A DNA stretch of 64,000 nt from Xylaria sp. FL1777. Lineage: Eukaryota; Ascomycota; Sordariomycetes; Xylariales; Xylariaceae. The translations under genes and the position numbers were made by a program. The stretch's first letter is position 1; every line of letters starts with the position of its first letter. A model generated the notes under the pieces. The model saw nothing but the letters and a program-made list of their open reading frames with translations. It was not told the DNA's origin and did no database searches. The stretch covers positions 372,001 to 436,000 of the forward strand of contig MU400520.1 of the NCBI GenBank assembly GCA_022578965.1, written 5' to 3'. Positions 5,178 through 32,823 of the stretch are shown here, one piece after another.

Positions 5178-6403
5178 CTAACAGTGTCGCTTAAGTCGTG
5201 CCATTTCAACAGTCAAGCCTGGACCAAAACTGCACACGACGACATCCTCGGTACCGGGACCCATCGTCCGTAATTTGTCAAGTACAGCAAGCACTGTCAC
5301 GCTGGCCGTGTTGCCCCTCGTGCTATATACGGCACTAGTGGCCCGAAGTTGGTGATCGGGGATACCAACGGACTTTTGCACGCCCTGGATGATAGCCGCT
5401 CCACCGGCATGCAAAGCCCAGTCACACTTTGTGGGTGATGGTAGATCCTTATTGCCGAAGAGTCGCTGAAGTGGCCGGTGTACAGCTGCTGAGGCGTGCT
5501 TTGGGAGAGTTCTGGAAAGATAGACTAGGAAGCCCTGAGATACGGTTGTGACAGAGACTTCGTCATAGGTCTCAGGGGAAACATTTTGGCACCAGTCGGC
5601 GATGGTAAAGAGACGTGGCATTTTCTCGGTCAGCGCGAGGTCGTTGCATAGAACAACTGCCGCTGCACCATCGCTGAATAGGGCAGCGCCGATCCGAAGC
5701 TTACCGGACTGGTTTGCGGCTTCGAGCTCGGCACGGAGGTTGATACTGCTAAGCTCGCAGGCTACGACAAGAATGCGGGCCGGTCGACCACGAAGAGTCG
5801 AAGCACAAGCCATGCTATTGGCCACTCGCAGAGCGGCTAACCCTCCTGCACACCCTGACCCAGAGATAAGGGATCTTTCCGCGTCCCCCGATATCCCTAG
5901 CTCCTTGGCAACGAGGTGATCGTAGCCGGGACATTTGCAATTCGTTGCCGTTACCGAGACCATATGGGTGATGGCCGAGGCTTCGATGCCGCTTTCATTC
6001 AAAGCCCGACGGGCAGCACCAGCCGTCAACGGGGGCGCGTATTTGTCAAAGGCCTCGTGAACCTGTTCAATTGTTGGCGGAACTGGCCCTCGCCACATGG
6101 GATCGTTCCAGCATTCAAGGACGGCCCGCGTCTTAACGCCAGTCTGGGCGTTCACCATGAGGAGCTTCTGTAGCCTGAGATTATTTGTTAGATACACGGT
6201 CACGAAGAAAGGACTGGTGAAGCATACCATGGAGAGTCCGCTGGGTAAATGCTCTCTGCGTACTCCCGAAGGTCTGCTGTGCCAACGAGAAGTTCGGGCC
6301 ATTCAGATCCTAGACCAGTGATGGTGAGACGATCACTGAGGTCTTCCCGCGGAACATCAACATTTTCAGTCTCGCCAGGAGAGGAGGACCAGCTAGCACC
6401 CAT
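5178..6403 (-). CDS. type III polyketide synthase (chalcone synthase-like)
   Basis: Two exons, 6228-6403 and 5178-6174. The 53-nt intron 6175-6227 (GTATGC...CTAAC...CTCAG) splits the Trp codon of YPADSPW and restores LQKLLMVNAQTGVKTR, the usual fungal type III PKS junction. The ATG at 6403 is the first in frame; the product is 390 aa, normal for the family. The catalytic triad is visible: Cys167 in SGSGCAGG, His314 in WALHAGG and Asn347 in STRGNTAS. The C-terminal SFGPGLTVEMA loop is at 374-384. The homodimeric enzyme would extend an acyl-CoA starter with malonyl-CoA and cyclise it to a pyrone, resorcinol or resorcylic acid, probably in the cytosol. The product cannot be told from sequence alone. 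It lies in otherwise gene-poor DNA with only the FAD monooxygenase at 1-1050 nearby. No stop or frameshift is seen. Confidence 0.95.
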
Positions 6404-10344: not shown

Positions 10345-10963
10345 TCAATTGTTTTTTCCCAGTGGCGCTCGGACGAATTCCTTCACAAGTTTGAGGACCT
10401 CTGGGTTCCTATTTAGTTTGGCATAGTCCAAAGCCGACCTCCCTTTTGAACACCTCCATGTCCTGTCGGTCCTTGCATCTTGTAAGAAAAGCCGCACAAG
10501 TTCAGGACTGCCAAAGTTAACCGCTGATAAAAAGGGGACTATACCACCCATGTCTGGGAGATTAACGTCAATAGAAGGATGAGATAGGAGGAGTTTGACA
10601 ATGTCCAAATTTCCTTGCTGAGTGGCGAGTTGAAGTGGAGTACAACCGGGACTTTGAGGAAGTGGAGTGTAAGCGGACAGACTTTGAAGAAGTGGAGTGT
10701 AACCGGACGGACATTGAAGATTGACGTCAATAGAAGGATGAGATAGGAGGAGTTTGACAATATCTAAATTTCCTTGCCGAGCAGCAAGGTGAAGTGGAGT
10801 GTAACCGGACGCACTTTGAAGATTGACCTTAATAGAGGGATGAGACAAGAGTAGCTCGACGGCTCTGAAGTTCATCCGCGTAACGGCCCTTGAAAGTGGG
10901 GGGAACCCGAGCACATCTTGGGTATTGATGTCAGTGGAAGGCCACAGAAGGAGAACCTTTAGT
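10345..10963 (-). pseudogene. 3' part of split NLR-like gene (C-terminal ankyrin repeats)
   Basis: This open frame encodes 206 residues of ankyrin repeats ending at the stop at 10345. It is the severed 3' part of the gene at 25934-30031. The codon at 10963-10965 (ACA) lines up in frame with the GAT-AC left at the other side of the LTR element, so the ancestral junction read EMD-TLKVLLLW. The open frame continues about 18 codons into the left LTR, with no in-frame ATG there; the first in-frame ATG of the host part is at 10875 (MNFRAVELL), so expression is doubtful. Recognisable repeats include GYTPLHLAARQGNLDIVKLL and a near-copy TPLQLATQQGNLDIVKLL. Between them are degenerate short units (GYTPLLQ, AYTPLPQ, CTPLQ). 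The nucleotide sequence is not RIP-mutated. Alternative reading: an independent ankyrin gene that lost its 5' end, but the exact frame match argues against this. Confidence 0.85.
10565..10776 (-). repeat. near-identical ankyrin-coding repeat units, 159-bp offset
   Basis: The 53 nt at 10565-10617 recur at 10724-10776 with only two differences, an offset of exactly 53 codons. Both copies encode the GNLDIVKLLLSHPSIDVN part of an ankyrin repeat. Short copies of a GAAGTGGAGTGTAACCGGAC-like unit lie between them. High nucleotide identity indicates recent duplication or gene conversion within the repeat domain. Confidence 0.85.
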
Positions 10964-10967
10964 GTAT
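10964..10967. repeat. target-site duplication GTAT (left)
   Basis: GTAT immediately precedes the TG that opens the left LTR and is repeated as GTAT at 25947-25950 directly after the CA that closes the right LTR. Four-base duplications fit LTR-retrotransposon integration. Confidence 0.8.
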
Positions 10968-11271
10968 TGAAATGGAGCAGTGCGATCGCGCAAGATCTAC
11001 CATACCACTCCAATTGCAAGGAGATAAGTCATAACTTACGCATCCAAGCAATTAGGCCATGTATGAATTGGAAAATTGAACGATTAATTGAAGGGCTATT
11101 TAATAATATAAATAAAGCAACCGTAGCTAATTTCCATTTTTTTGTGCGTTTTTATTAAGTTTATACTTCGAAATCTAGCGTAATACTTATACTTTTATTT
11201 TTACTATATAATTTAGCTTAAACTTACTTTAATTAGCTAGTTAGCTTATTTAGCTACTTTATTTTACTTTA
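10968..11271. repeat. left LTR (304 bp)
   Basis: Begins TGAAATGGAGC and ends ACTTTA, where the right copy has ACTTCA. It aligns to 25643-25946 over all 304 positions without a gap. Its outer part (to about 11130) is nearly unmutated; the inner 80 bases carry most of this copy's 19 C/T or G/A changes. A block around CTTCGAAATCTAGCG is identical in both copies. Confidence 0.9.
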
Positions 11272-14200
11272 ATCTTTTTTTATTAAAATATAGCTGCTTT
11301 TAGTTTATTTTAATATTTATAATTATATAGTTTTTTATTTTTATTAGCATTTTTTAAACAAAATTAATATTATTTTTTTTTGCTTATTTAGTTTTATAAG
11401 TTTTTTTTTATTTTTTTTGCTATGTTTAAAAATAGTTTAAGCTTTAGCGCTTATAAAAGCATTATAGCTTTATTAAAACTAGTTTTAGCTTTTTTACGTA
11501 TTTAAATATATAAACAAAAGCTTTTAAAAGTGCTTAACGTTTTTTTTGTAAAAGTGCTTATAAAAAGTTTATATTTTTTTTTTTTTAAATTATTAAGTTT
11601 AGCTAAGTTTTATACTTAGTTTATTATACTTAAAAAAAAAAATATTTGCAAAAGTTTTTATAGCAAAATAACTTTATACTATTAAAACGTTTTTATATTG
11701 CTTATAATATAACTTTTTTAGTATAATTATTAGTTTTTTTTGCTAAGAACTTTTTTTGTGCTTTAAAGTAAAAAGCACTAAAAAAACAAAACAATTAACT
11801 TTTAGTTTTTTTTTTAGCATTTTTTTTTTATTTTATATATTTTTAGCGCTTAATAATAAAAAAGCTAACTTATTAAATCTAAAAAAAGTTGCTTTTAGTT
11901 TTTTTAAAAAATAATAAAGCTTAGCGCTTATTAAAAGCAATAAATATAAATCTTTTTGCAATTTAAAGCTAAAGTGCTTTTTAAAGTTTGCTTTTAAAAA
12001 TTAAATAAGCTATTTATAATTTTTTTAATTGCTAATACTTTTTTTTAAATATTAGCTTATTAAGTTGCAAAACATATAGTATAAATATAAAGCTTTAATA
12101 AACCTATATATATAATTATTGCGCTAATAAAAGCAAAAAAGTATAAAATAGCTTAATATAACCTTTATATTAAAGTACTTTATTATTTAATATTTTTGCA
12201 ATTTTTAGAAAACTTATTTATTATTTTTATTAGTAGTATATTTAAAGTTTAAAATATATATTATTTTTAAAACAATATTAATAAAAATAATAATTTAATA
12301 ATTATTTAAGCAATATTTTATTATAAAATATTTTATTTAAAAAGTTATAGCAATTATTATAGTTTACTTTATATTTTGCTAGTTTATAAGAAAATCTTTT
12401 ATAAATTAGCTATACTTAAGTTTAATACTTATTTTTAAAGCTTTAGTTTTTTTATTTATATATAACTAAAGCAATATATTTAGTAAAGCTTTTATTTTAC
12501 GCTTATTTAGCTATTTTTTAGCGTTTAGCTTTATAAAAATATTTATAATATAAATAGCTTTAATTTTTTATTTTATAGTGTTTATTTTATAAAAGTTTTT
12601 ATAGCAGCTATAAATAATAAGCTTTCTTTAGTAATTTAAATATTTTTATTTATACTAATAAGTTTTTTTAGCAGCTATTTGTTATTTTAAAAAGAAAGTT
12701 TTTAGCTATTGCTTTTTATTATTTTTATATATTGTTTTTAGAACTTTACTTAATAAAAAACAATAAGCTAGCTTTTGTTTATTATAAAGCTTTAGTTTAT
12801 TAAAATGTTTTATATTATTATTTTTTTAATAATTGTTTAAAGCTTTTTTTAATAGTAGTTTTTTTAAGAATTTTATAAATAATAACTATTAAATATTTAG
12901 TTTTTATATTATAGGTTTTTATTTTTTATATAGTTTTAGCTTTATTACTAAAACTATTAAATTTTTTATAAACGTAACGTTAGATTTATTAAAACAAAAA
13001 TTATTATTTTTGCAGTATTTTTTAATCTTAAATAAGTATTATATTAATATTATAAAACTTTTTATAGCTATAAATTTTAATATTTAGTTTATAGCTTATA
13101 AAAATGCTTTTAAATATTTAGTTTTTAGTTTAAGCATATAAAATAGCGTTTTATTTATATTTATTAAGCAGTTTTATATAGCAAAATATGCTATAAAAGC
13201 TTTTCTTTAAAAATTAAGCGCTTTTTTACTAAGCAATAAATTAAAAATATAAAAAACTTTTATTAAGATTATATATAGTATAAATTATTAATATTTTAAC
13301 GCTTTTTTATTATAATACTTTTTATATATTAAGTATATTGCTTTTTTTTATATTTGTTAAACTAAATTTAGAAATAAGTTTTAGTAAGTTTTGCTATTTT
13401 TAAAAAACGTATAGCTAAAGTGTTTTTTTAGTATTATTTTTTCTTTTTTTTTTAAGTTTTTAAAAAACAAACTTTTTATAAAGGTTATTTTTTTTTATAT
13501 AAAATAAAACTTTAAAACAAACTTTAAAAAAACATTAACTAAAAAAAGCAGTATGTTTTTTAGCTAAATATTTTTTATATTTAGTTTTTTAATTTATAAA
13601 AAAAGCTAACAAGCTAAATATTTTTTATATTTTAAATTTTTAATAATTATTAGCTTTTTTTTAAAGCTGTTTTTAAAAAGCTATTAGTTTTTAAAGAAAG
13701 GCTTTTTATAATTAGCAGTTAAGTTTATATATATATATTTATTTTTTTTTTTTTTGCTTTTTTTTTAAAGTTTGCTATTTTTTATGCTAGTTGTTTATAT
13801 GCTTTAATATTAAGTGTTAGCTTTATAAAACTTTTAAAAAAAAATGTTTTTATTTTTAGTTAATTTGTAGTACTAATAACTTTTTTAAAAATAGGAAATA
13901 TAATAATTAAAAGCGTATATATATAATAAAAGCAATTTTTAATAATATTTAAGCATATATATACTTTTGCTATGTTTTATAATTTAATAAAAAATACAAG
14001 CAAATTAAAAATTTTAATATAAATTAAAAGTATAAAAGCAAATAGTATAAAAAGTATAAAATATAAGTATTAATATTAGTACTATTTGCTTTATGCAGTT
14101 TAATATTTTTAATTGCTAATTTAAGTTATTATTTTTTAATAATTGTAAGATTTTTTAAATATAAATACTAAAAGTATTTATACTAAATATAAAAAGTTAA

Positions 14201-17200
14201 AACTTATTAAGTAAATAAAATAGCAAAGTTAAATATAAATAAAAAGTTTAATAAAGCAAATATAATAAAAAAAAAGCTAAAATATATATTTTTAAACTAG
14301 TGCACTTTTTTTTTATAAACTTATTATATTATTTTTAATTTATTAATTAATTATTTTATTACTAAAATAAATTATTAATTGTTAAATATTTTTATAATAA
14401 TTATTTTTTATATATTTATATTAGTATTAATTAAAAAATAAGCAAATAAAGTAATTTTAATTAGCTAAATAGTTATTTTTTAACTTTTTTTTAATATATT
14501 TATAACTTATTTTTTTTAAACATTTATTACTACTAATAATAAAATAAATAACTTAAGCTTTAATAAGTATAAAAAAAAAGCTTGTTTTTTTTTTTAATTT
14601 ATTTTTTCTTAAGTAGTTTTAAAGCTTAGATTTTTTTTGCAATTTTTTTTTTTAGTGCTTAAGTCTTTAGATTACTTAAATTATGTTTTTATTATAAAGT
14701 TTTTGTTTTTAAGTAGTATAATTAATGCTTGTTTAACTAAGTACTTAAAAAACAATTTTTGCGTTATTAATAAAGTTTTAAACAATTAAAAAATATTATA
14801 ACAATTAACTAATATTTAAAAAATTAATATTGCTTAGCTAATAAATAGTTATACTTATAATATTTAAAAAGTTAAGTTTATTAATAAATAGCAAAATATA
14901 TATGTTTTCTTTTTTTTTAAATTTTGTTTTTTTTATTTAGCTAACTTTTTTTGTTTTATATAATTAAGCATTAAGCTATTTATAAATTAAAATTTTTAGT
15001 AATAATGCTAGCAGTAAGTATATTTAATAAAAAGTTAGTTATAATTTTTTTTATATATGTTATATAAATTAATATATTTAAGCTAGCTTTAGCTAAATAA
15101 AAAAACAAAAGTATTTAAAATTTTGCTTATTATATATAAAAGCAACTAAAAGTAGTTTTTAAAGCAAATATATATATTAAATCTTTTATAACTTTTGTTA
15201 ATTTATAGCTATGTTTATATAGCTATTTAAAATATAAAATGCTATATTTTGTAAGCATTATAAATAATTATTAATAATAGCTAAAAGCAAAAAATATATA
15301 AAGTTTTATTTTTTTTTTTTTTGCTATATTATTTTAAAATAAAAGTTTAGTATGTATACTAACTATATGTTTATTATTTAGTTATAAAACTGTTTATTTT
15401 ATAAGTTTAAAAGTAATATAACTAAATATTTTAAAGCTAATATAGTAACTATAGCAGTTAAAAAAAATCTTACGTTTAAAAACTTTAAAAAATAAATAGT
15501 TTTAATTAAAAATACCTTTGTTTGCTTAACTAAAAAAAAAACTAAATTAAAACATAAATTAAAGCGTTTTTTTTAAGCTAATTTTATTGCTTAGCTTATT
15601 AAAAGTAATATTAATAAGTAATAATTTAGTATTGTTTAAAAGATTAACATAATGCTTAAATATTTAAAAAAATAGCTAAAAAAATAAATTAAATAAATTA
15701 TATAAAGTAAAATAAAATAAGAAAATTAAATAATTTGCTTATATAGCAATGTTTTTTTTAATATAATTTATAATTATTTTTTTTTATTGCATAGCTTATA
15801 AATTTTTTTTTAAGCATAATAAATAAAAAAAAAATAGTTATTATATAAAAAGTTAAATTATAACATTTATAAAAGCAAATATATAAAACTTTTATAACAA
15901 AAAAATCAAAAATATATAAAATAAGAATTATTAATACTAAATTGTTAAATTTTTTTTTGTTTTTTTTTTAGTTTTTATTTTTTTAGCTTTATATAATTAA
16001 ATAATCTTGCTTAATTTTTTATAGCAAAGTTTTATTTTTGCTAAGCCTGCTTTAAATTTTGCTTAAATGTTTGCTGTTTTACTAAATGTTTATTATTGCT
16101 TAATAATAGCTTTAAGTTATTACTAATAGTTTAAGCACGTAAAATATAAACTAGTAACTTTTTAAGGTGTAATAATAGTGTTTTTTGCTTTTTAGTAGTT
16201 TTAAAGTTTTTATTAAATATTAAATAGTTTAAACTAAAAGCAAAAAAAGCTATTTAGTTTTAAATAAAAGTAATAAAGCAATTAAAAGTAAAAAAACTTA
16301 TATGTAAGCGTTAGTGCAATAAAATAAACTTAAATAATTAAAACTAATAAGCAGTTTTTATTTTTGTTTTTTTTGTTTTTATGCATTTTTAAAAAAAAGC
16401 AATAATAATTTATATTAAAACTAAGCTATTTAGCTATTTAAAAAACATTAAAATAAAATAAAAACTTATGTTTTTAACGTAATAATAAAAAAAGTGCTAA
16501 TAAACTAGCTGCTATAAAACTAACAAATATAAAACTAATAAAAAAAAAGCTATAAAAAACACGCTTAGTTTTAAGCAAAAAAAAATAGTTTTGTGCATTA
16601 TAACTTAATTATATAAACTTATATAATTAGTAAAAATAAAAAATAAAACAATTAGTAAAAAAACAAAAAGTAAAAAAAAAAAAATTTATTATTTTAGCTT
16701 TTATTAGTTATTATTTTTTAAGGCGTTTTATAATATAGTAGTTAAAAAAATAAAGTAAGCTATTATATTTTTTAGCACTTAAAATGTTTAAAGTACTAAA
16801 AGTTGTATTGCAGCTTTTATAAACTTAAAAAGCTTTTATAACTTGTTATATTTTTTTTATTTTTTATAGCTTAACTATTATAGCTTTAATTGTTAAAAGC
16901 TTTATTGTTTTAATTTAGTTTTTAATAAATAGCTATAGTACTAGTAGTTTATATATTAAAGTTAAGATTTTTTAGTTTTTAATACTTTTAATTATTTTAT
17001 ATAAATTGCTTTAATCTTTTAAAAAAAAATAACTTTTTTAATTTTTTGCTAGTTAGTTTTACTAATTAGTATTGCTTATAATTAACATTTTTTTTAATTT
17101 TATAAAAGCTAATCTATTTATATAATAGCTTTTTATTATTAAACTTATTTATTAAAAATATAATATTATAAAAAAAAACAAAAAAGCTTTTTTTAAGTAG

Positions 17201-20200
17201 TTACTTAATTTTATAAGCGTTTTTTCGAAATTTAGCTTTTATAGCTAATCTTTTTTTTTTAGTTATAATTGCTTTAACCTTTATAATATTTTAGTTATAA
17301 CGTTTTAGCTATTTAACTTTAGCTTTAATAAAATTTTCGTAAAAAGCAATATTTTACTATTTAATTACTTTTTATGTTAGTATTACATTTTTTACTAGTA
17401 AAATTAGCATTTTTTTATATATTAGCTTATATAAGCTATAGCTATAATAATATATAAAAATATAATCTGCTTATATTATTAAGTTTAAATATTTTAGCTA
17501 ATTTTTTTTAGTTTTATTTGTTATTTATATAAAGCTTTTTTTTATTAGCTTATAGTTTTCTTTAATAAAGCTTTAAGCTTAAAAATAATAAGCTAAACTA
17601 TAGTTTATTTTATAGCTTAAAGTATTTATTGTATTTTTTACTTTTTTTTTAAATTTAAAGCTATTATTACATTTAATTTTTATAAGGACTTTATATTAAA
17701 ACATGATTTTTTTTTTAATAAATTTAAGTATTTTTAGAAAATTTATGTGTTTTAAAAGTTTAGTTTTTAAGTAAGTTATTATTTTGCATTTTGCTTTTAT
17801 AATAGTTTTAAATCTATTGCTTAATAGTATAGTTTATATATTTATAACTTAAAAAACTAAAAAATCTAAAAAATAATTAAAACAGTATTTTTTAGTTTTT
17901 TTGCTATTTATAAATTTTTAGTAATTAAAGCAACTAGCAATTATAACATAAATATTTTAATAAAAGCCTTTTTAGTAATATTTTTAAGTTATTTGTTAAG
18001 TTATAAATATTTAGCTTTTATAAGTTATTTTTTTATAGTTTTCTTTAATAAAAGCTTTTTAGGTTTTTTTGTTATTAATAACCTTTTTTAGCATTTTTTT
18101 AAATTTTGCTTTTTTTTAAAGGATAGATTTATTAACAAAAAATTTAAAGGCTTTTTTTTTAAAGTAACTTTGCTTTTTTTTTGTTGTAAGTTCTTTTAAA
18201 ACTTGCTTAAAAACAAAATACTTAGCAATTTGCTTGCTTTTTTTGCTTTAATCTTTTTTTAAGTATAGCAAAAGTTTTATTTTTTAGTATACTAAGCTTT
18301 TAATTAGTTAATTGCTTGATTTTTTATATATAATAGTAATAGCTATTATATATAGTTAAAAATTAATAAAATCTTTTATATTTTTTTTTTAATAATTATT
18401 TAACTTATTTAATAGCTTAAAAAGTTTTTTAGAAAGCTTATTAGCAGCTATATATTTTTTTTTTAGCATATAATAAAGTATAAAATCGAAAGTTTTTATA
18501 TATGCTATTTATTTTATTAATTAAGCATTTAGCAATGCTAAAAATTTATTATTTAGCTATGCTATAAAAACTTTTGCATTAATTTTTAAATAAAACGTAA
18601 TTTTATAAAAATAGTTTTGCAACTTTTAAAAGGTTTTAATAATAGTAAGCCTTTTTAGCTTTATAGTATTATATCTTTTTTTAGGGCTTTTTTATATTTT
18701 AAACTTATATTTTGCTAGTTTAATAATTTTATTAACTTTTTAGCATAAAATAGTGCTTTAGCTAGTTTTAAAAGCATTTATTTTTAGTTAAATAGGTCTT
18801 TTTATATAATCAAAAATAATAAAAATAAAAGCTATTATAATAGCTTTTTAAAGCTTTTTTATAGCTTTTTTCTACAGTTTTTTAAAATAAAACGGCTTAT
18901 TTTTCCGTAATAAAACCATTAATAGTTTTGCAATTATAGCATACTTTTATATTTATATTTAGTAGTATACTGTTATTTTTAAAAAAAATTATACTTTTGT
19001 AATGTTTTTATAAGTCTTTTACTTAAAAATTTTTATTATTTTTGCTTTTATTAAGCTTTTGCTATTAGTGCTATATATATAGCTAATTATTTTAGTTATT
19101 TGTTTTGCTTATTTGCTTTTAAGTATGCTAGTTATAATTTTAGCTAGCTTAAAATTAAGTAGCATAATATTAAGATTTTTAAAATGCTTTAATATAAACT
19201 ACTTAATTTTTAAGGCAACTTTATAATTATTATACTTAGTAATAAGTTTTTTAATTATTATATTATTAAAAAAAAGTTCGTATTTTATTAGTAATATATT
19301 ATATAAAACTTTTAATAGTACTTTTAAAAATTAAGCTATTAAATTTATTGCTTTTTGTAAAAAAGTAATTATTTAAAAAAAGCTTATTAGTATAAAAAAA
19401 GCAATTATTGCTTAGCTAAAAATAAAAAGTAGTATTTAATTATATTTTAAAAATAAATTAACTATAGAAATTATTTTATATATTATAAACTTTTTAAAGA
19501 ACTTATTATAGCTTTAAAAAAAATTAGCATTGTATATAGTAATTATGTTTATTTTTATAGCTAAATTAATTAATTGAACTTTTTTATTTTTTTTTTGTAC
19601 TAAAAACTAAGCGTTATAATATAAACTGTAAGCTTTTTTAAAAATGTTATGCTTAAGTTAAGTTTTTAAAACCTTTATAATAATGTTTTTTAAAAGTTTA
19701 AAGATTAAAATGCTGCAAACTTGCTATGCTTTATAAAAAACTGTTTTAATTTTATAAAAAAGAAAAATTTTATTATATATCTTTTTTATTTTAAAAAAGT
19801 TCTAAAAAAGTGCTATTTTTTTGCAATATTATATTTTAGTTAATAATGTTGCTTTTTGTTAAGTAAGGTTAATTATATAAAGCTTTTTCGAAAAAATAGC
19901 TAGTTGTTTTATAGTTAGTTAAATGCTTTTAAAAATAATGCTAAAACATAAATATATGTTTTAATAAATGCTATTTTATTAAAATAGCGTAAGATTTTTT
20001 AAGTAATAGCTTGTTTTTTTTAAAGCTTGCTTTTTTTATTTATAAAATCTAAATAAAATAGTGCTATTAAATAGTATGTTATTTTTAAAATAGATTTTTT
20101 TATTTTTTATTTTATATATTATATTTAAAATTATTGTTTTACTTTTTATTAATTTGTTAGTTTTTAAAGCTTAAAAAATTAATAATACTTAAGTTAAAGT

Positions 20201-23200
20201 TATAATTAAGTTATATTTGCTTTTTAATTTATATGCAAGATTTTTAGTTTTTATAATTGTTAATTTTTTAGCATTTTTTTGCTTTAGCGTTTTTTTTATT
20301 GCAATTAAAAGTATTTTAAGTAGTTAATTATTATTAAAAATAACGCAAACCTTTTTATTGTTTTATATTTTTAGATTTTCGAAAAGTTTGATATTTTGTA
20401 TAAAAGAAATTAAAAAAACTACTAATATTATATTATTATATAAGTTTTAATCTTTTTAAAAGTTTGCACTTGTATACTTTTTTAAACTATATTTTTTTAA
20501 TTTTTTTTTTGCTTTTTTTTGCTAATCGTTAAATTTCCTATTTAAAGTTTAATATTTTTATGCTTTTTGTAGCTTATTTACTAAGCTAGTAGTTTAGCAA
20601 ATATATATTAGTTTTTTAGTTATTAACGTTTTTAAGCTTTTAAACTTAGTTCTTTAATATAGTTTATTACTAGTATAATAATTTAGCTTGTTTTAAGTAT
20701 TATATTAGCTATTATATAAAAGCTTTAAAAATATAAACTTATTTAAAACTTTATAATAAAGTTTATTTTTAGTAATAAAAAGTAAATAGCTTATTTTTTG
20801 CTAACTATATATAACAAAAAAAGCAATAACTTTTTACTTATTTAAATAGTAGTTTTTAAGCATTTTATATATTTAATTAAATTGCTAGTTTAATTAAATT
20901 TTTTTTAGGTTATATTTGTATTTTTAGTAGTAAAGCTGTTTTTATTAACAAATAAGTTTATAATAATGCTAAATTGCGTTTTAAAATTAATAATTCTAGT
21001 AATATTTCTTTTGTAGATTTTGTTTTTTATTTTTATAATAAGCTTTAAGTAAAGCTATATATATTTTTTTAGCTTTATAACGCTTAAAAATATAGCTAAA
21101 ATATTTTGTAATTTTAGTAGCAAAGCTAATATAAAATATAAATTTAAAAAGCTTAAGTATTTTTAGTTAAAATAATTTATTAAGCTTAAGTTTTTTTTAT
21201 TATAAAATTTATACTTTAATATTTTTTTAAATAAATTTAAGCTATTACTACTAATATAATTATTATATTTTTTATAAATTTTTATTTTAAAAGGGTTAAA
21301 AGTTTAATTAGCGCTTTTTAAAACTATTAATGCTAGCTATGTTAGCTTTTTAAGCTTTTTTTTTTTTTTTAGTACTACTAGCATAAAATTAGCATAAAGC
21401 TAAAGTTTAGTTAAAAATACTACTTTTTTTAAAGGTAGCATAAGTATAACAATTAATAACTTTTGCTTTTTTAGGTTATTTTTAAATAATAAATATATAA
21501 TATTATATTAGTTTAAAATCTTAAAAAGCATTTTATTAAACTTTAGCTTATTTTTTAACGTTTAAAAATTTAAAGCAATATAAGCAAAAAATAATATTAC
21601 TTAATTATTTTATTAGTTTTAATTGCAAAAAACCTTTATTATTTTATAGCGTTATTTATTTAAAAAAGCAGTTATAAAGCTAAATTAAAGCATATAAGTA
21701 TATATAATAAAACTATTATATTTTATTTTTTTATTTATTTATGTTACTAAATAGTTTAATAAAAAGCTAGTTTTATAAGTGCTATTTAGCGATTTATGTT
21801 TACTAGGTTAACTAGCTAATTATAACATTAGCTAAAAACTTTTTTGTGCTTTTTTAATTGCTAGCTATTAAAATTTTATGTTATTTTTTAAAGAGTTTAT
21901 GCTTTTATAAAAAAAAGCATTTTTTATGTTTATTTAAGTTAAAATTTCTTGCAATAAAGTTTTTAGTTAAGCCTTATATTTTAATTTGTTGTTTTTTTTT
22001 TTAAAATAAGTTATAATATGTTTAATTTAATTTGCTAACTTAAATTTTTGCTAAAGTTATTTAAAAGTAGTAATATTATTTTTAATATTAGCTTAAGTAT
22101 TTTTATTGCTTTAAAATATAACTTAGCTTTTATTTAAATAATTATTTAAATAAAAACATTAAAGTATTTTAAAACTTTTAATATAAAGTTTTTAAAAATA
22201 ATATTTGTTTTTTTGTTTAAGAAGTTTTTGAACTTTTTAGCTTATATTTTTTCAAATTTTAAGCTTTTTTTTATAAGTCTTGCTTTTTAGATTTTTTAAA
22301 GCTTTTAATAATTAGAACTTTTTAGTTTTAATAAAGTATTTTGCTTGTAAAAATTGTTGTTTATTTATATATTTTTAGTATTAAGCTAAATAAAGAATTT
22401 ATTGTTATTTAAATAAATTTTTTTAATTGTTTAATTTATAAAAAGCTTTTTTTTTTGTTTTTTAGGTTTTTTTTTACTTTTTGTTTAATAAAAGGCAGCT
22501 TTTTTAGTTAAAAGTTTATAACAATTAGCTTAAAACACATTTATGCTAATCTTTTTGCTTAATATATAGCTTTATAAAACTTTAGTGCTATTTGCATTAT
22601 AAGAAGTACTTTATGTAAAGTTTTAATTAATTGTAATAAAGCTATTATTTAGTTTGCTGTTTATTAAGTTGTTTTTTTTAATATTATAAGCTTTTATTAG
22701 TTCTATTTTATAAAGCATATTAATTTAATTATTAGTTTTTTTATTTGAAAATTAGTTTAGCTGCTTGTTATTTAGCTAGTAAAGTTTTTTTTTTTTTTAA
22801 CTTTTTTGTTTGCTTTTTATTTTAGCATTTAGATTTTTATTATTTAAAATAAAGTTTTTTTTTTATAATTAATAATAAGCTTTTTACTTAAGTAGTTTAT
22901 TATTACTTAAAATAAAGTTATATATTTATTTTATTGCAGCATTAAAAATTTTTTTTTTATTTTTGCTAATTTTTATAACTTTAAAGAAAACTTTTATGCA
23001 TTTAAAGCTTACAAAAGATTTTAGTTCTTTTAAGCACTATTTAAAGTTTTAGTGTATAATGTTTTTCTTTTTTAATTTATAAATAAAGCTACACTTATAA
23101 ACGTAGTAATTGTTTATGCTACATTTTTAATAAATAATTTTTTTTATTAAATAAAGATTGTTTAACTTTATTTATTATAAAAAATTAAACAATTGTTTAT

Positions 23201-25642
23201 TTTGTTTTTGTTTTTTAGAGTTATATTTACTTCTTTATAAATATTTAAAAGTTATAACGTTAATACTAAATACTTGTTTTTTTAATAGGTTTATGTTAAT
23301 TTTGTAATATTATAATACTTATAGTTTTTAATTAATTAGCTAAACATACTAATTTTGCAGTTTTTTTAGCATTTTTTTTAGTTTTTTTTTTATAATTGCT
23401 ATATTTTTTTGTTTTAATTTTAACTGCTATATTTGCTTAGTAATATTATTTATATTTTAGTTATAAACAAAGTGTTAAGCTAATTTTACTTGCTATTTTT
23501 TAATAATAACTGTTTTAGCAGCTAATATAGTTATATTAATAGCTAGCTTAATAGTATTAATAGCAATATATAAAAGCTTATTAAAATTATAATTATATAA
23601 ATAATTAACTTTTTTTTATGCTTTATATGCTTTTTTTGTTTTTTTAAAATAAAGATTTAGCTTAGACTTTTTATTAATTTAATTGTTTAGTGTTTTATAA
23701 AGGTTTTTATAAAACATCTTATTTAAATTATTATATAATTTTTTAAAAAACTTTATTATTTTGTTAATAGTATTTTAATTTAGTTTTTTAAGCAAACTTT
23801 AAATAAGTTAAAAATTAAAGTAGTAATTTTTTTAAGCTTTAATATTTTTAGTATATACTTAATACTAAAAAAAATAAGTTTTAAAATTAATAAAGTATAT
23901 AGCTTTTAAGCAAGCTTTAAAATTTTATAATATAGCAATAATAAATTTATTTTGCTTAAAGTTTTAAAGCTTAAATTTTTGCTTAAGTAATTTACAAGCT
24001 TTAATTTATAATAAACAATCTTTTAGTATTATTTTTATTATTTTTTTTGTTTAGAAAATATTATAATAAATAAAGACCTGTTTAATTTTGTTAATGTTTT
24101 TAAAACGCTTTGCATAAAAAAAAGCATTTAGATTATTTAGCTATTTGTTTACTTTTAATCTATTAAACAGCAAATGCTAGTTTAATTTTAGGTTAAAAAG
24201 TATAAATAATAGCTTAATTTTAATATTATGCTTATTATTAAAATAGCTTAAGCTAAATAAAGTTGCTTTAATACTTTTTAAAAACAATAAGCTAGTTATT
24301 TTTATTTTTTTTGTTTATAAATAATTTTAATGTTTTTTATATATTAAAGTAAAAAAATTTAACGATTTTTTATAATTAGATTACTTAATTAAGCTATAGT
24401 TTTTAAATTTTTAAGCTATATAATAAATTAAAGTAAAGTTTATATAAAAATAACAAAAAAAGTAAGCTACAAAAAATAATAAAAGTAAGCTATAAAAAAT
24501 AATAAAAGTAAACTAAATAAAAATATAAGTTTAAAAAAAAAAGAAGTATAAAGTGCTAAAAGTTTTTAGGTATTTTAAGTATTTAAGTTTTTTTATACTG
24601 TTTTTTTAGATTTTTTTTTTAAAAAACTTAACAATTTTTTTTGTTTGTATTTATAAAAACTGCTAGTTTGTTTTTTATAGCTTTTTAAGTTTTTTTTTAA
24701 ATGCTTTTATATTTTTGTTTTTTGTACGCTTTTATTTTTTTGTATGCTTTATAGCGTTTAGTTTTTTTGTTTTTTAGTTTAGCTTGCTTTGCTTTATATA
24801 AGTTTTATTAAGCAAGCTTTATTTTTTTATAGCTTTTTATTTATAAAAGTAGCATGCTTTTTTTTTTTTTTTAAGGCTTTTTTATTTAATAATAAGTACT
24901 ATAAAGAAATAATAGCTACATTTTATATAAAGTCTTTAAACAATAGCTAGCTTACACTTAAAAAACTTTGCTTTTTATTTTTTAATAAAAAACTATATTA
25001 GCTTAAAAAATAAAATATATTTTTAATTATTAATAGCTTTATATATTAATATATAAACTTAAATTCATTTAATATAAATAAGCGTTAAATTTGCTTGCAT
25101 TATAGCTTTTAAAAGTTTTAGCAATTTTTATTCTTTTTTAAGCTTATTTTTTGTTTTTTTTTGCTTATATAAAGGCAATTGTGCTTTTTTTTTTGTAAAG
25201 CACTAGCTTTTTAGCAAAAATTCTTTTTTTTTAGCTTTTTAAGAGTTTTTAATAAATAGTTTTTTAGCTGCGCTATTTTAAAGATTATACTAGCATTTTA
25301 ATACTTAATTGTTGTTTTGCTAAAAAAAATAAAAGCGTTTTATAAATTAAACTAAAAAAAACAGTTTAACATTTTTATACGTTTGTTTTAAGCTTTAATA
25401 ATTAAAAGCTACTAGCTTAAACGTTTATTGCTAATTATAACTAAACTGCTTATATTAAGTAAGCCTTGTTTATTACTAACTAAAGCAGCTAAATATAATA
25501 TATTATATTTTGTTTATAGAAATTATAGCAATTAATAAATAAATAAATTAAACATATAAGTTAGCAATAATAAATTGCTTGTTTGTTAGTTTTATAGTAT
25601 TATTTGTAATAAGTAAAAAATTAGCTTTACTAAAAACACTAA
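11272..25642. other. AT-saturated interior of the LTR element
   Basis: No coding sequence, tRNA or rRNA was recognised. The text is dominated by A/T runs with short GpC-containing words. Open frames of more than about 60 codons are absent on both strands. The composition is that of a fully RIP-mutated repeat, not of a fungal mitochondrial genome, because no conserved mitochondrial reading frame survives. Confidence 0.8.
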
Positions 25643-25946
25643 TAAAATAAAGCAGTATAATTACGCAAGATTTACTATATTACTTTAATTGCAAAAAAAT
25701 AAGTTATAACTTATGTATTTAAGCAATTAAGCTATGTATAAATTAGGAAATTAAACAATTAATTGAAAGGCTATTTAATAATATAAATAAAGTAACTGTA
25801 GCTAATTTCTATTTTTTTGTGCGTTTTTGTTAAGTTTATACTTCGAAATCTAGCGTAATACTTATACTTTTATTTCTACCATATGACTTAGCCCAGACTT
25901 ACTCCAACTGGCTAGTTAGCTTATTCAGCCACTCTACTCTACTTCA
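25643..25946. repeat. right LTR (304 bp)
   Basis: Begins TAAAATAAAGC (TG mutated to TA) and ends CTACTTCA. The pattern mirrors the left LTR: its inner (left) part is mutated at 32 positions while its outer (right) 80 bases are intact. The last base forms part of an ACT codon, and the LTR supplies the codons Glu-Val-Glu-stop that end the truncated NLR reading frame at 25934. Confidence 0.9.
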
Positions 25947-28900
25947 GTATCCATTTCGGCCGGCTCGACACAACAGTCTATTGCTGTTTCCAGAGCATTT
26001 GGGCTACAATTGTCTTTTGAGTTCGGATCGGCTCCAAGTTCTAATAAATATTGAATCATGGTATGTCTTTGGTGCAGAATAGCGTAATGCATCGGCAAGC
26101 ATTTGGAACTATTTGACAAGTTACTATGAGCTGGATTGAACTCACACAAGACCTTTAAACCGTCGAAGTTATTAGCCCGAATGGCGGTTAAGAGTGGAAA
26201 ATACTCGTTCTCGTCTTCTACCAATGTGCCATCGATATTTAAAATATTACGGAGTAATGGCAAAGCTGTTACCTCATTAGAGGTAAGAATAGCATGTACG
26301 ATACTCTGTCCGCAGCCCTCTTCAAATTTGACAATTCTCCGTAGTTCTTCGCTGGATAGTCGGCTCAATGTAGACAATATACTAGGAGTATATTGGACAA
26401 TTGTTGGTGGTATACGTCGTGAAAGGAACCAGCCACCGTGTCGAATCAGTAATGATACCATTGCACTTGACTTTGCAAAGTTCAAGCAGGTCATGTCTTT
26501 GCATCCAAGGCGAAGCGAGACAATATTTGGGTCTGCACTTTTCAGCAGTAGAAACTCAGCTCTCGCGAAGTCATCAGCATCCACTGCCTTCATAAGAGCC
26601 GTGAGTCCATCATAAGTAATCGTATCAATATGGGCACCGAGCTGGATCAGATGTATATCAATATCAAGGGTCGTAGGGCGTCCAACACTTCCTAATAAAT
26701 CCTTGCGCTCGACATTGGAGGTGGCTAGGATTTGGTCACAAAAAATTTCAAGTAGAGTGATGTTTCCAATCGAACAAAATAGTGTCAGTAAATCCATGGG
26801 GTTTTTTCTTTGCCCACTCAGATCTGATTTGAATTGAGGCATATTGCGCAAATCCTTTTTAATCTTGTTGAGATCTTGTAACTGACTAGGGGCCAATGCT
26901 CGTGTAGCAGCTTCAAATATCAGTGAAAATACTGCCTCGTTATTTCCAAAGACAGCTGCAGCTATAAGAGGGTTTGGAAATCTTTCTGTTTCATTGCTCT
27001 TCAGGGACTCATATCGCTTCGGGTGTATACGTATTAGACTAGCCAAGTTTTGCTCAGCTAGAAGATAGAGGAGGTCAACCTCGCTCGTGTGGTGCCGACT
27101 CTTGTGTTTCTGCAGCTTATTATCTAGACTGACCCATTTTTCCTTTGGAAATATGTTTAGAAGGAAATCAATCTGTTCTGAACCTAGGCTTTGAGCTGAA
27201 TCCGTATGGGCAAGGATGTAAGTCACCGCGTACTGAAGGAATGGCATATCAATCCTGCTACTGCTTTCAGCTGACTCTTGCGCCACGTATCCCCCATGTA
27301 TCTGTTTGAGACAGATATCTCTGAGTATATCGTGGCTAGCCCCATCAGTCAAGTTCCTCTGGGATTGTTGAGAATTGAGCAATGTTTCTAGCCCCCTTTC
27401 CCGTAGCAAGTAGTCTCGCACTGACTCATGGATAAACTGCATGGTAGCGTTCTTTTTCGTCACTTCTGTGAGGCCCTTGGAGGCATTCAGATTGAAGCGG
27501 TTAATGTGCTTTATAGTCATGGAGGCTGGATCCCAAACCATGGATGCCTCAGTGCCCTTTCCGATTTGTAATGCAACGTAAAGTTCCTCAGGTCGCAGCG
27601 GTCGCTTTGCAAAGAGAATCAATTGAATACATAGTATCATTTCCTTCATGTTCTCATTGTCGCGAGTTAAGATGTCCTGAAAAAGGTCGTTCAAACCCTG
27701 GGGTATTTGGCGTAGTCTCTTACGTACGCTTACATCACCCCCTTTGTCGTTCTCCTTGTTGAGGATATCAACGACAAGTGCTGCCCAAAGGAAAATCCTC
27801 GAAGATCTGTCGAAAATTTCATCCTCGATTTTTTGCCGTTGCCCATTGTTGTCGATTCTAAGTTGGGAGTGAATATATTGTCGAATATCATCTGAGTGAT
27901 CATCTTCATCTTCGAGGACAAGTTGTAACCCGTGACTCATTGTCACGTGTGGGTAGTGGCGACTAGAAAAGCACACTCGAATATTTAATTCACCGAGGGC
28001 GGTCCTCTCGCCAACATCCTCAAAAAATGAGATCATATTCCTGATTTCTTCCTCTGCACATTCGTCTAGCGCATCAACAAAGCAATACACTTCACGAGAT
28101 GAGGCATTTGTCAAAACAGAGCTAAAGGCCTCTTTTAGGGCCTCGATTGGCCACGGAGTGGCGTCATCAAGGTTACATAGCTGGCTGAGAGCATACGAAT
28201 TGATGTCACCGACAGGCAGAGCGCTTATTAGTTGCCATAATAAGGACCTATACATGCCCTCTGTCGAATGTTCGAGCTTGTTACCCCGAGCATTGAAGAA
28301 GAATTTGAGCACAAGACGACCATTCTTAAAGCGCATGGTGTTTTGGTAGAGGTATTTCATGGAAACGGATTTCCCAGTTCCTGGTTTGCCTTTAATCCAA
28401 AGGAAACCATGGTGTTCACCCGTTTGCGATAAGTCGACCCATGATTTGTATAAGTGATGCTCAAGCAGCCATTGGCACGTCTTGCGCTGCGCGTTCTTAA
28501 GTGTCATGTATCGAGCATCGATTCCTTGAAAGCTTATCTTCTCTAGCATCTTAGCAACTTGTTCAGATGATAGCTTGGCGTAGGTGGCTTGTGGAGGTGC
28601 GTGCTTTTTATATTTATCGGATTTGAGAGAAGTATGGGAAGTGGTAGGTGGTAATTGCTGCTGTGTTCTGAGAAGTGCCGATGATACTTTACGGAACTCT
28701 GGATCATCAGCATCTGTGAATCTGCACATTCCAACATGATCGGCTCTAATGTGGACTACTCTCTCATGTTGGGGGTCGTTTATAGAAGACGACTGGTCGT
28801 CTACAATCTGATTTTGCCAATAGTTAGCCAGAGTATGTGTTTCGCTGGACAGTCGTCAGCTATGTATGAAAGGGAACTCTTACTTTGGCACCTAAGGCAC

Positions 28901-30031
28901 TATGTGCGAATTCTTCTTGGAATGTATATATGTTCCAATTACACTCATTCGTCCATTTGAGAAAATCATCTGCTAATAGCTTTGATCTCTCGGCTCCAGG
29001 CATCAATGTTTGGACGATTTCCTTGTTAACTCGGAAACCGACCGCATTAATTATGTTAGCAAGAACCTTGTGCAATATGTTGCGAGGATCGGTCCCTGCG
29101 TGCGGTGTACCGAAGAAGAAAAGATTTGTAGTCGATTGATAGACGTGGTAGCGTTCGGGCTGAGAATGCTCGTAAGACTTTGATAATCTTAGCGTGTCTT
29201 TAACAAGCAAACCGCCTAAGCTATGGGCAACAAACATGAGGGGTCTCTGAGAATCTCGAGAGCGGCAATTCTCTAACGCAGAAATGAAATCTGTTGCGTG
29301 GTCGCCTAGTCTGTTCTGACTTATCGGCCTATTCAGAGAATGCCGGATATTGGTATCGTAACCGAAGGTCAGCACTCGACTACAAGGAAGAATATCTGGT
29401 AGAAGATCTGGTAGATATAAGTTAGTCCAATAAACTAGATGAAAATAAATATTAAAGCCCGTTATAGTGATTAAACCGAGGTATTTGTTAAGTAAACCCT
29501 TAAACGGGTTTTTAATATTTGTTGCCCTATAAATGATGATAGATTATATCAAGCTTTGTTCTTCAGCTTATTTAAAAATTAAATAATTGCGCTACTATAA
29601 CAGAATATAGTAATAAAAAATAACAGAAAATCGCGTTAGGGGATACCTCAAGGCGTGAAAATATGGGGTGTAGGTAACGACGAACCTCTGGGCCAGTACA
29701 CGAACTCAGGCGTTATTGGCTCGCTTTGAGAGTACGGTATGAATTTACCAAAAGGTGTGCGTTTTCGACCATTTCCTGGAGTTACCAGCTCAGAATTAAT
29801 AGCGCGCTTCTTGGATCTCCAGGTTCGCTCAGGGTGCCCAGTGAAGCCATGAACAAAACATATACTATATCAAAATAGTTAGATGATTCTGTAGCGAATT
29901 CAGAGCACTATATTAGGTGGTTCTCACTCAACGACTGGAGAACTAGGAGCATAGAGTACCGTGATCCCTGTAGGGTGAATGCTGTCCATATTTCTTGCGC
30001 CCGGCTCGGGCGAAGATGTTCCAGTCATCAT
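25934..30031 (-). CDS. NLR-like alpha/beta hydrolase-NACHT-ankyrin protein, truncated by LTR insertion
   Basis: Four exons: 29928-30031, 29686-29864, 28884-29407 and 25934-28807, all in phase. Introns are 63, 278 and 76 nt. The N-terminal hydrolase domain has VHGFTGHPERTW (about 39-50), WPRDLLPDILPCSRVLTFGYD across the 278-nt intron, the nucleophile motif AHSLGG (Ser157), FFGTPHAG and GAKIVDDQSS. The NACHT module has Walker A GKPGTGKS (409-416) and Walker B FVDALDE (512-518). Ankyrin-like repeats follow. The reading frame ends after 1226 residues with three residues and a stop supplied by the LTR; the missing ankyrin end is at 10345-10963, and the ancestral protein would be 1428 aa. Fungal proteins of this type are STAND regulators linked to non-self recognition. 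The start at 30031 is the likeliest ATG, but the frame stays open upstream to 30247. The truncated form might still be expressed. Confidence 0.88.
25947..25950. repeat. target-site duplication GTAT (right)
   Basis: Copy of the GTAT at 10964-10967, directly outside the CA end of the right LTR. It falls inside the NLR codons GAT-AC(T), which is why removing the element with one copy restores the frame. Confidence 0.8.
29408..29685 (-). other. long AT-rich intron of the NLR-like gene
   Basis: This 278-nt intron (GTTCGT...CTACCAG) is several times longer than most others in the window. It joins VYWPR to DLLPDILP exactly in phase. Its inside is AT-rich and contains direct copies of ACAGAA-type words and CTACCAGAT repeats at the acceptor. 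It may hold the remains of a small insertion. Confidence 0.7.
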
Positions 30032-31007: not shown

Positions 31008-32823
31008 CTACCATGCAAAGCTCTCATTATGCCACCAAACGTATCTGCCTTTTCTAACCCAATTGCCAACATGAGATCTTAGTTCACGTGCCATTGGGTC
31101 TGATCCGCAGACGAGCACTGCAACCCTCTCTTCAAAGCCTTGCTTGAAGACATCGTCCACTATGGTCTTTAGATTTGGTCGCTTGTCGCTAGGCATTGGA
31201 GTTTGTCTCGTCTGCTGTCGATTATTGGATATACTAACCAGCTCCACATCCTCGCTGTCATCACTTAACCTTACATCTGGATTTAAAGTCTCTACTATAT
31301 TTCCCGTGAGAAATAGCTGAATATTATCATCGTCCACGATGCTCTTTCCTTCACTGGTTTCAGGCCATGTGGCATCACCAGCACTCCGCACTGCCCAGGC
31401 CATCTGAACACGAGCTGCAGGGTTCTCGGCTAGGATCCAACGGTAAAGAGGAAGTGTGAACGTCGCTCCTACACCGCCAGCGACTAAAAGAATCCGGTCA
31501 AACTCAGAACTCGCTAGGTTCGGAAAGCGTTTGGCGCATCCGTAGGGACCATCGAAAGCGAGTTTGACCTTGGAAGTAGCATCTGTATTATTCGCTAACT
31601 TGGTAAAGGCCCTGGTCATGGGGCCATCGTGTCGACGAGCAACTAACGTAAGCTGCCCAGAGGCCTCATCCACCGCGGCTACAGAGAAAGGGTTAAACGA
31701 AAACTCGAAGACAAGGTTACCGGGCGCTATGGGGTTCCTGGTTGGGCGAGAGGCAGAAGGTATGCTTAGGTAGATGTGCGTGCCCGGGTTCTTCGCGAAA
31801 CGGTCAATCTTCCCCTTCGGGATGGTGCCGACGAGTTTAATTAAATCAGTGTCCGGGATCAGCTCGACCTCTGTTTCGGCTATGATAGTGTCGAACCGGC
31901 GCTTTGCGATGTCCACAAGGAACACAATGAGAGACTCCCAAACGTAGAATGCAGCGTGGTGCGCGTGGAAGTAGATGACCGGGGGAAGCGCAAGTGCTAT
32001 TAGTAGATGTGTGATGAAGAATATCCTATACGAGTACTGCCGCACCACTGACAGAGCAGTCCCATACAAGAGGTACATGAGAGTGATCAAGGTGAAACCT
32101 AACACTGGAACAAGGGAAGTGATCTTCTGGCCGAGTAGGTTATTCTGGTAGTAGAAATTAAAGAAAAAGGCCGCATGCAGGCTCACGAATATGCCGATGA
32201 TGCGGCCGAGAACACGATGCCAGCGGTTGACCTCCTCATGCGAAGACTTCAGTGCCAGGGCGATTGGGTTAAGGCTCTTCAGCGATAGCAAGTACTGCAC
32301 CGGGAACTGCGACACGCCAACGATCCCAAAGCGTCTGGTGAGATGCATATAATCTACAATGGCAATCAGCGTCCGCCACCATCTCTAATACTGCCACATT
32401 GGATCAAGAAGAAATCAATCCGGCAAGGATCTTACCATTTCCTGTGCCTACTACGCACAGAACGAGCAACCAAATCGTCCACACGGCTCCAGCGATGATC
32501 TGGTCGCGCGGTCCCCAATTCCAGCCCAAGAACACGACATCGTCACCAAACCACCAGGCAACCTTCCCTGCGCCAGTCCTCCATGAGCCGACAACACTCA
32601 GCCGTTGCCGCTTCAAAGTCGGCGAGTCCGGAACAGCGGCGTACCTCCCGCGATCGGATCCTGTCAGCTTCACTATTCCCCACGCGACAAGACGGTACAG
32701 CAAAAACAGCGCAACCGGCACCAACGTAGATAGCTGCGCGATTAACCCATAGCGATCGAGAGCGTGTCGGCGTGCTTGGAGCTGTTCCGCGTCAAGGTCG
32801 ACGAATTGGTAGGGCCAGCCCAT
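31008..32823 (-). CDS. ferric-chelate reductase (FRE family metalloreductase)
   Basis: Two exons, 32436-32823 and 31008-32353; the 82-nt intron 32354-32435 (GTAAGA...TTGTAG) restores GNDYMHLTRRFG. The product is 577 aa. The N-terminus MGWPYQFVDL is typical of fungal ferric reductases. The transmembrane core carries two bis-heme histidine pairs with 13-residue spacing: His175/His189 (RWHRVLGR...LHAAF) and His245/His259 (THLLIAL...YFHAHH). The cytoplasmic half has an FAD-binding NPFSVA segment, FDGPYG, the NAD(P)H-binding LLVAGGVGATF, and the C-terminal VLVCGSDPMARELR. The expected role is transfer of electrons from NADPH through FAD and heme to extracellular Fe(III) or Cu(II) at the plasma or vacuolar membrane. 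Sequence and splice sites look intact. No adjacent iron permease, ferroxidase or siderophore gene is seen. No regulatory motif was verified. Confidence 0.95.

Follow-up and report, generated by a model that had tools for sequence, protein, structure and literature searches.

A hypermutated 15-kb long terminal repeat element within an NLR-like gene of Xylaria sp. FL1777

The gene considered here lies on the minus strand of a 64-kb window (C15:372001-436000, the whole stretch of DNA that was analysed) of the Xylaria sp. FL1777 assembly, which comprises 58.7 Mb in 588 contigs. It resembles fungal NOD-like receptors (NLRs), with the order lipase-like segment, NACHT domain and ankyrin repeats, and it is interrupted by a long terminal repeat (LTR) element of 14,979 bp at window positions 10968-25946, as seen by comparing repeats within the window. 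We propose that an LTR retrotransposon, probably of the Ty3 type, has very probably inserted into one of the ankyrin repeats of this gene with duplication of the four bases GTAT. The element belongs to a family whose repeats carry dense C-to-T changes in a context that may be of wider interest.

The interrupted gene and the anatomy of the insertion

The initial annotation had described an LTR element that divides a single NLR-like gene into two halves still in frame with each other, and this description is borne out by the target-site duplication, the TG and CA ends of the element, the reading frame, the split repeat, the paralogues, and other copies of near-equal length that also show 4-bp duplications. 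The NACHT-ankyrin frame runs on the minus strand from 28729 to 25934, where it terminates within the right LTR, and an ankyrin frame on the same strand resumes directly outside the left LTR, from 10963 to 10345, both as first annotated. When the element and one copy of GTAT are removed in silico, the exon that begins at 28807 becomes 3480 nt long and holds 1159 codons plus a stop, with zero internal stops, in agreement with the 1160 stop-free codons given earlier once the terminator is counted separately. The three phases of the joined sequence differ sharply at this point, remaining open past the junction for 206, 1, and 10 codons. Because two ankyrin landmarks, LLELGADPN at residue 895 and VLLLWPSTDIN at residue 931, are spaced 36 residues apart and span the junction at residue 927, the cut falls inside a single ankyrin repeat (helix positions at the junction were read by eye).

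The borders of the element are those of an LTR retrotransposon. Comparison of the window with itself reveals direct repeats of 300 bp, lying 14,675 bp apart, that bracket an AT-rich block, and the LTR pair as finally delimited consists of two 304-bp copies that are colinear and gap-free and differ at 51 positions, all 51 of them transitions. The outer ends of the element are TG on the left and CA on the right and both inner LTR ends read TA, as would result from C-to-T mutation. The internal region (11272-25642) yields zero frames of 150 aa or more in the open-reading-frame list.

The two halves carry recognizable domains. In the NACHT frame a Pfam match to NPHP3_N (E 2e-32, residues 84-257), which we take to be a NACHT-type NTPase, is accompanied by the P-loop GKPGTGKS, and Ank_2 matches occur in both the right half (E 5e-15) and the left half (E 1e-40). 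Upstream lies a lipase/esterase-like frame containing HSLGG, in phase with the exon across a 76-nt intron for which the donor was chosen by eye; the matches of this frame to Hydrolase_4 and DUF676 (E 0.0025-0.0082) are below cut-off, and a lipase-like segment is also present in 6 of 29 paralogue loci. The closest NACHT paralogues in the same genome, L010, L011, and L012, are 37-42% identical over the NACHT part and match both halves in single frames of 792, 773, and 835 aa, respectively. As the initial annotation had noted, the host parts lack damage of the kind left by repeat-induced point mutation (RIP), in that the exons are without the hypermutation signature. No empty site was found in the same assembly with up to 3 mismatches allowed, and the NACHT half had no relatives in the viral, bacterial, and archaeal contig collections, which says little given that their content is viral, bacterial, and archaeal. 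Between 10530 and 10860 the ankyrin repeat units are highly alike, their DNA identity reaching 86-89%, a feature also of recognition domains that change fast. The features of the locus, in window coordinates, are as follows.

10345-10963, minus strand: NLR-like gene, 3' part of the 3' exon, ankyrin repeats up to the stop codon
10964-10967: left target-site duplication GTAT, from comparison of the borders
10968-11271, minus strand: left LTR, 304 bp, the 3' LTR of the element if pol is on the minus strand
11272-25642, minus strand: interior of the element, GC content 12-17% per 1-kb bin over 12001-25000
18593-18874, minus strand: decayed RT-RNase H-like domain, weak Pfam match (RT_RNaseH_2)
25643-25946, minus strand: right LTR, 304 bp, the 5' LTR of the element if pol is on the minus strand
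25934-25936, minus strand: stop codon within the right LTR that now closes the NACHT frame
25947-25950: right target-site duplication GTAT, from comparison of the borders
25947-28807, minus strand: NLR-like gene, 5' part of the same 3' exon, with the NPHP3_N NTPase, the P-loop GKPGTGKS, the first ankyrin repeats, and one GTAT copy at its 3' end
28808-28883, minus strand: probable phase-0 intron of 76 nt (GTAAGAG ... CAG), acceptor from the frame listing and donor by eye
28884-29543, minus strand: open frame, in which the upstream exon would lie, with the lipase/esterase-like segment (HSLGG, FFGTPHAG), Pfam matches below curated cut-offs

Two further minus-strand frames were noted in the neighborhood, a type III polyketide synthase-like frame with chalcone synthase domains at 5178-6302 and a ferric reductase-like frame at 31008-32348 that adjoins the NLR-like gene.

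The element family and the age of the insertion

The element is a member of a family that is large and recently amplified. When the beginning of the LTR was searched for genome-wide as a degenerate pattern of 35 bases, 284 sites matched, against 0 for the reversed pattern. Positions were obtained for the first 100 of the 284, and 54 of these form 27 same-strand pairs spaced 14.59-14.75 kb apart, each of the other printed distance bands of 800 bp holding at most 3 pairs. Three other complete copies, compared with that in the window, measure 14,979, 14,957, and 15,028 bp and are bordered by GTAC/GTAT, ATAT/ATAT, and ATAT/ATAT, respectively. The 15,028-bp copy itself lies inside a further member of the family (C17:16-31 kb), and the window copy, at 22.6 kb, shows the uninterrupted counterpart of its target. 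Of 18 insertions, 17 have a central TA in the four bases to the left of the LTR, and of the 10 whose flanks are of normal GC content, 9 do; both sides were read for 4 of the 18.

The tentative assignment to the Ty3 type is based on a weak match to RT_RNaseH_2 (E 8e-6 to 1.2e-4), which all 3 of the 3 copies that were read show in the same position. From the minus-strand position of this match (18593-18874), which recurs in the two other copies, pol is placed on the strand of the gene, so that the element probably lies in the same sense as the gene. When the window copy was read as 36 pieces in six frames, RT_RNaseH_2 was the sole Pfam match at E ≤0.05, and the same piecewise reading recognized the reverse transcriptases (RTs) of two other elements that have 11 stops each. 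Two possible links were rejected. The stretches around 18 of the 47 RT matches of the genome (16 RVT_1 and 2 RVT_2), which were retrieved along with one LTR stretch, gave, when compared with the window element, no alignment of at least 150 bases above 65% identity, that is, nothing beyond AT-rich background, and an RNase H match at C17:167.7 kb lies in sequence that does not match the element.

A preference of the family for NLR genes was also considered and rejected. The outer left flanks of 15 insertions, including that in the window, comprise 10 of normal GC content and 5 that are AT-rich, and among the ten normal-GC flanks, which the frame scan covered, only that of the window enters a long open frame (206 aa). 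The longest frames at the edges of the other nine are 49 aa and 99 aa, and the latter lies opposite a 339-aa frame on the other strand whose end is 25 nt short of the LTR. The ten are a non-random sample, since six of them were picked by eye for their little-mutated outer ends.

The insertion appears to be fairly young, a reading supported at the level of sequence by LTRs that differ by transitions only, the absence of transversions private to the window copy, and 1159 codons free of stops. An alignment of 22,038 bases from 17 loci, representing 12 elements, contains 1907 transitions as against 42 transversions and 4 gaps, and the 42 transversions are located at 20 sites. None is private to the window at the 4340 sites that are each covered by at least two other loci; at one further transversion site, covered by a single locus, the window copy and that locus differ. 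If one third of ordinary substitutions are transversions, the window copy would have acquired at most about 0.2% substitutions after its divergence from the related copies. The bound from the gene itself is looser: because 4.2% of single substitutions in the joined exon would create a stop, the open halves would permit up to about 2% substitutions. The recent disruption proposed in the initial annotation thus stands, and it is the argument from undamaged host sequence that falls, since unique DNA beside a mutated element is spared anyway and the flanks provide no clock. RIP is active in the sexual cycle, as stated in the sections available of the Podospora study (PMC10787394). If the hypermutation is RIP, the insertion predates at least one sexual cycle, and having passed through sexual generations it should therefore exist in natural populations.

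Sequence context of the hypermutation

C:G to T:A transitions are confined to the repeats, and host exons are undamaged. Within the window element mutation is heavy in the interior and declines in both LTRs over the outermost 100-150 bp, the outer ends being nearly unmutated, and this fading would account for an element that is silenced while both gene halves are still readable. In the LTR pair, the mutated base is in the right copy over the first part of the LTR and in the left copy over the second, with two exceptions in the middle. In copies with AT-rich surroundings the outer ends are mutated as well, so the fading is a trait of this copy with its normal-GC surroundings and not of the whole family.

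The context of the changed cytosines is uneven. In the window LTR pair, C was mutated at 18 of 21 sites after C, 22 of 35 after T, 6 of 53 after A, and 5 of 60 after G; sorted by the base that follows, the counts are 24 of 45 before A, 8 of 21 before C, 7 of 26 before G, and 12 of 77 before T. A 3' A therefore favors mutation and the 5' base discriminates more strongly. The per-column table built on 13 LTR copies has mutated cells numbering 36/455 for GpC, 57/91 for ACA, and 295/454 for TpC. Over the whole window element the ratio C/(C+T) is 0.02 where T precedes and 0.03 where C precedes; it is 0.20 behind A and 0.53 behind G. The corresponding values in host DNA are 0.42-0.51, and in the element the dinucleotide GC occurs at 6.7 times its expectation. 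The same order of 5' bases is found in the 16 RVT_1 and 2 RVT_2 stretches and in a further AT-rich stretch (on C80), where GpC, at 0.36, is under the host level. The classical indices would still score these repeats as RIP (TpA/ApT 1.46, substrate index 0.60).

We tentatively suggest that the process behind the hypermutation of the repeats mainly requires a pyrimidine on the 5' side of the C (TpC or CpC, whatever the 3' base), that it also acts on ACA, and that it largely spares GpC. If so, its specificity would be unlike the CpA, CpT, and CpG signatures tabulated for fungi by Amselem et al., as excerpted (PMC4352252), and would point to a methyltransferase or deaminase with a different preference. 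The genome has six DNA_methylase matches on four contigs (C14, C17, C31, and C98), one of them in a gene with BAH and DUF7893 domains; these are matches at the level of the family and do not single out RID. In the excerpts that we consulted, a 5' preference has a precedent in Microbotryum, where TpCpG is mutated (PMC4352252, PMC2621366), and a weaker preference for CpA is stated for Monacrosporium haptotylum (PMC3828140). In Monilinia, by contrast, the portion available reports that GpC is depleted and TpC less so (PMC8959702), which is the opposite of the sparing of GpC in Xylaria sp. FL1777. A pyrimidine rule that spares GpC was not found in the open-licence literature, judged largely from titles and excerpts. 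We consider this mutation context a more general lead than the disruption of the gene.

Alternative explanations, consequences, and comparison with known systems

It is conceivable that two adjacent ankyrin genes merely have the element between them and that their frames match by chance, since a frame match alone has a chance of 1/3 and ankyrin-coding stretches are common in this genome (the ankyrin half has 42 matches, counting the gene and a small number of LTR matches). We consider this very unlikely, however, because the left piece opens at the LTR in the second helix of a repeat and has its first ATG not before codon 49, the right piece breaks off once the first helix of a repeat is complete, the spacing once joined is that of one repeat, and L010, L011, and L012 hold both parts in one frame. 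The assembly might instead have joined two unrelated loci through the repeat, as a family with 284 LTR starts could mislead an assembler, but a matching 4-bp duplication, LTR differences that are all transitions, and an ankyrin repeat restored in frame are not expected from a mis-join, and the concern over such a join that accompanied the initial annotation now seems to have next to no probability. Also to be considered, and compatible with a retrotransposon insertion into one gene, is that the gene was already a pseudogene, or that the truncated protein still functions, so that the insertion changed little. This we regard as somewhat unlikely: 1159 codons without stop or frameshift, when 4.2% of substitutions give a stop, bound any earlier decay but do not exclude it.

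Several observations weigh against an insertion by a Ty3-type element into a single working gene. The ankyrin repeat that spans the junction exceeds its neighbors in length by a few residues, and the best Ank_2 stretch of the joined piece begins at the junction and does not cross it. Among the four copies there is one whose two 4-bp ends are not identical, with a single base changed (GTAC/GTAT). The RT_RNaseH_2 matches lie below the Pfam curated cut-off, and in a genome-wide search with this profile, in which 150 of 623 candidates were scored, the window copy is not among the matches listed. Neither RT nor integrase was found in the 36 pieces of the window copy, and genome-wide profile searches, which returned 31 matches for RVT_1, 16 for RVT_2, 0 for rve, and 111 for H2C2, placed none of them inside the four complete copies. 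Finally, the split gene is read from the sequence of one assembly, and the gene may already have lost its function when the element arrived.

On the reading that we prefer, insertion of a retrotransposon into a single NLR-type gene, the sequence of events may be summarized as follows. The element would have inserted at GTAT within an ankyrin repeat, probably in the sense of the gene, and the C-to-T hypermutation of the element followed. The gene would now terminate at the stop in the right LTR, giving a truncated protein that keeps the effector-like and NTPase parts and loses the final 206 residues, where most of the Pfam-recognized ankyrin repeats lie, and the downstream ankyrin piece would be left as an orphan. 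Ligand sensing would then be lost or changed, and the result is likely a natural null or altered allele. The insertion would amount to a natural deletion experiment on the ankyrin repeats of an otherwise readable NLR-like gene and, if an intact allele segregates, strains that carry the insertion could be compared directly with strains that lack it, to see whether the gene acts in allorecognition or defence. It would also mean that retrotransposition can cost a genome an NLR-like gene even under strong hypermutation of repeats.

Natural gene disruption is a known kind of event and inactive NLR alleles are well known. In Podospora anserina such alleles are frequent (het-d3, het-e4, and the nwd pseudogenes; PMC12222747), and in the parts of that account available to us they are described in terms of repeat number and stop codons, whereas the cause proposed here is a 15-kb LTR element. 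LTR insertions are reported, in the excerpt at hand, in intergenic regions of the het-B2 haplotype (PMC10890737), and a fungal NLR gene interrupted by an LTR element was not found described in the literature, judged mainly by titles and the openings of abstracts. The split gene shares its domain order and ankyrin C-terminus with fungal NLRs of the type effector (SesB-like or other)/NACHT/ankyrin; SesB-like domains account for 13-14% of the N-termini of ascomycete NLRs, and ankyrin is one of three types of C-terminal repeat, according to the sections seen of PMC9815663. It differs from fungal NLRs in that its C-terminal repeats are mostly cut off by the retrotransposon, and from SesB-like NLRs in that its lipase-like N-terminus is weakly matched in Pfam, so that 'SesB-like' is offered as a suggestion. 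The element itself is comparable to crapaud of Podospora, an LTR family which, in the excerpts seen of PMC10787394, likewise has full copies with C-to-T hypermutation. However, the window element is 15 kb long, has a four-base target with a central TA, and is mutated mainly at TpC and CpC, whereas the same excerpts give CpA/TpG for Neurospora and Podospora.

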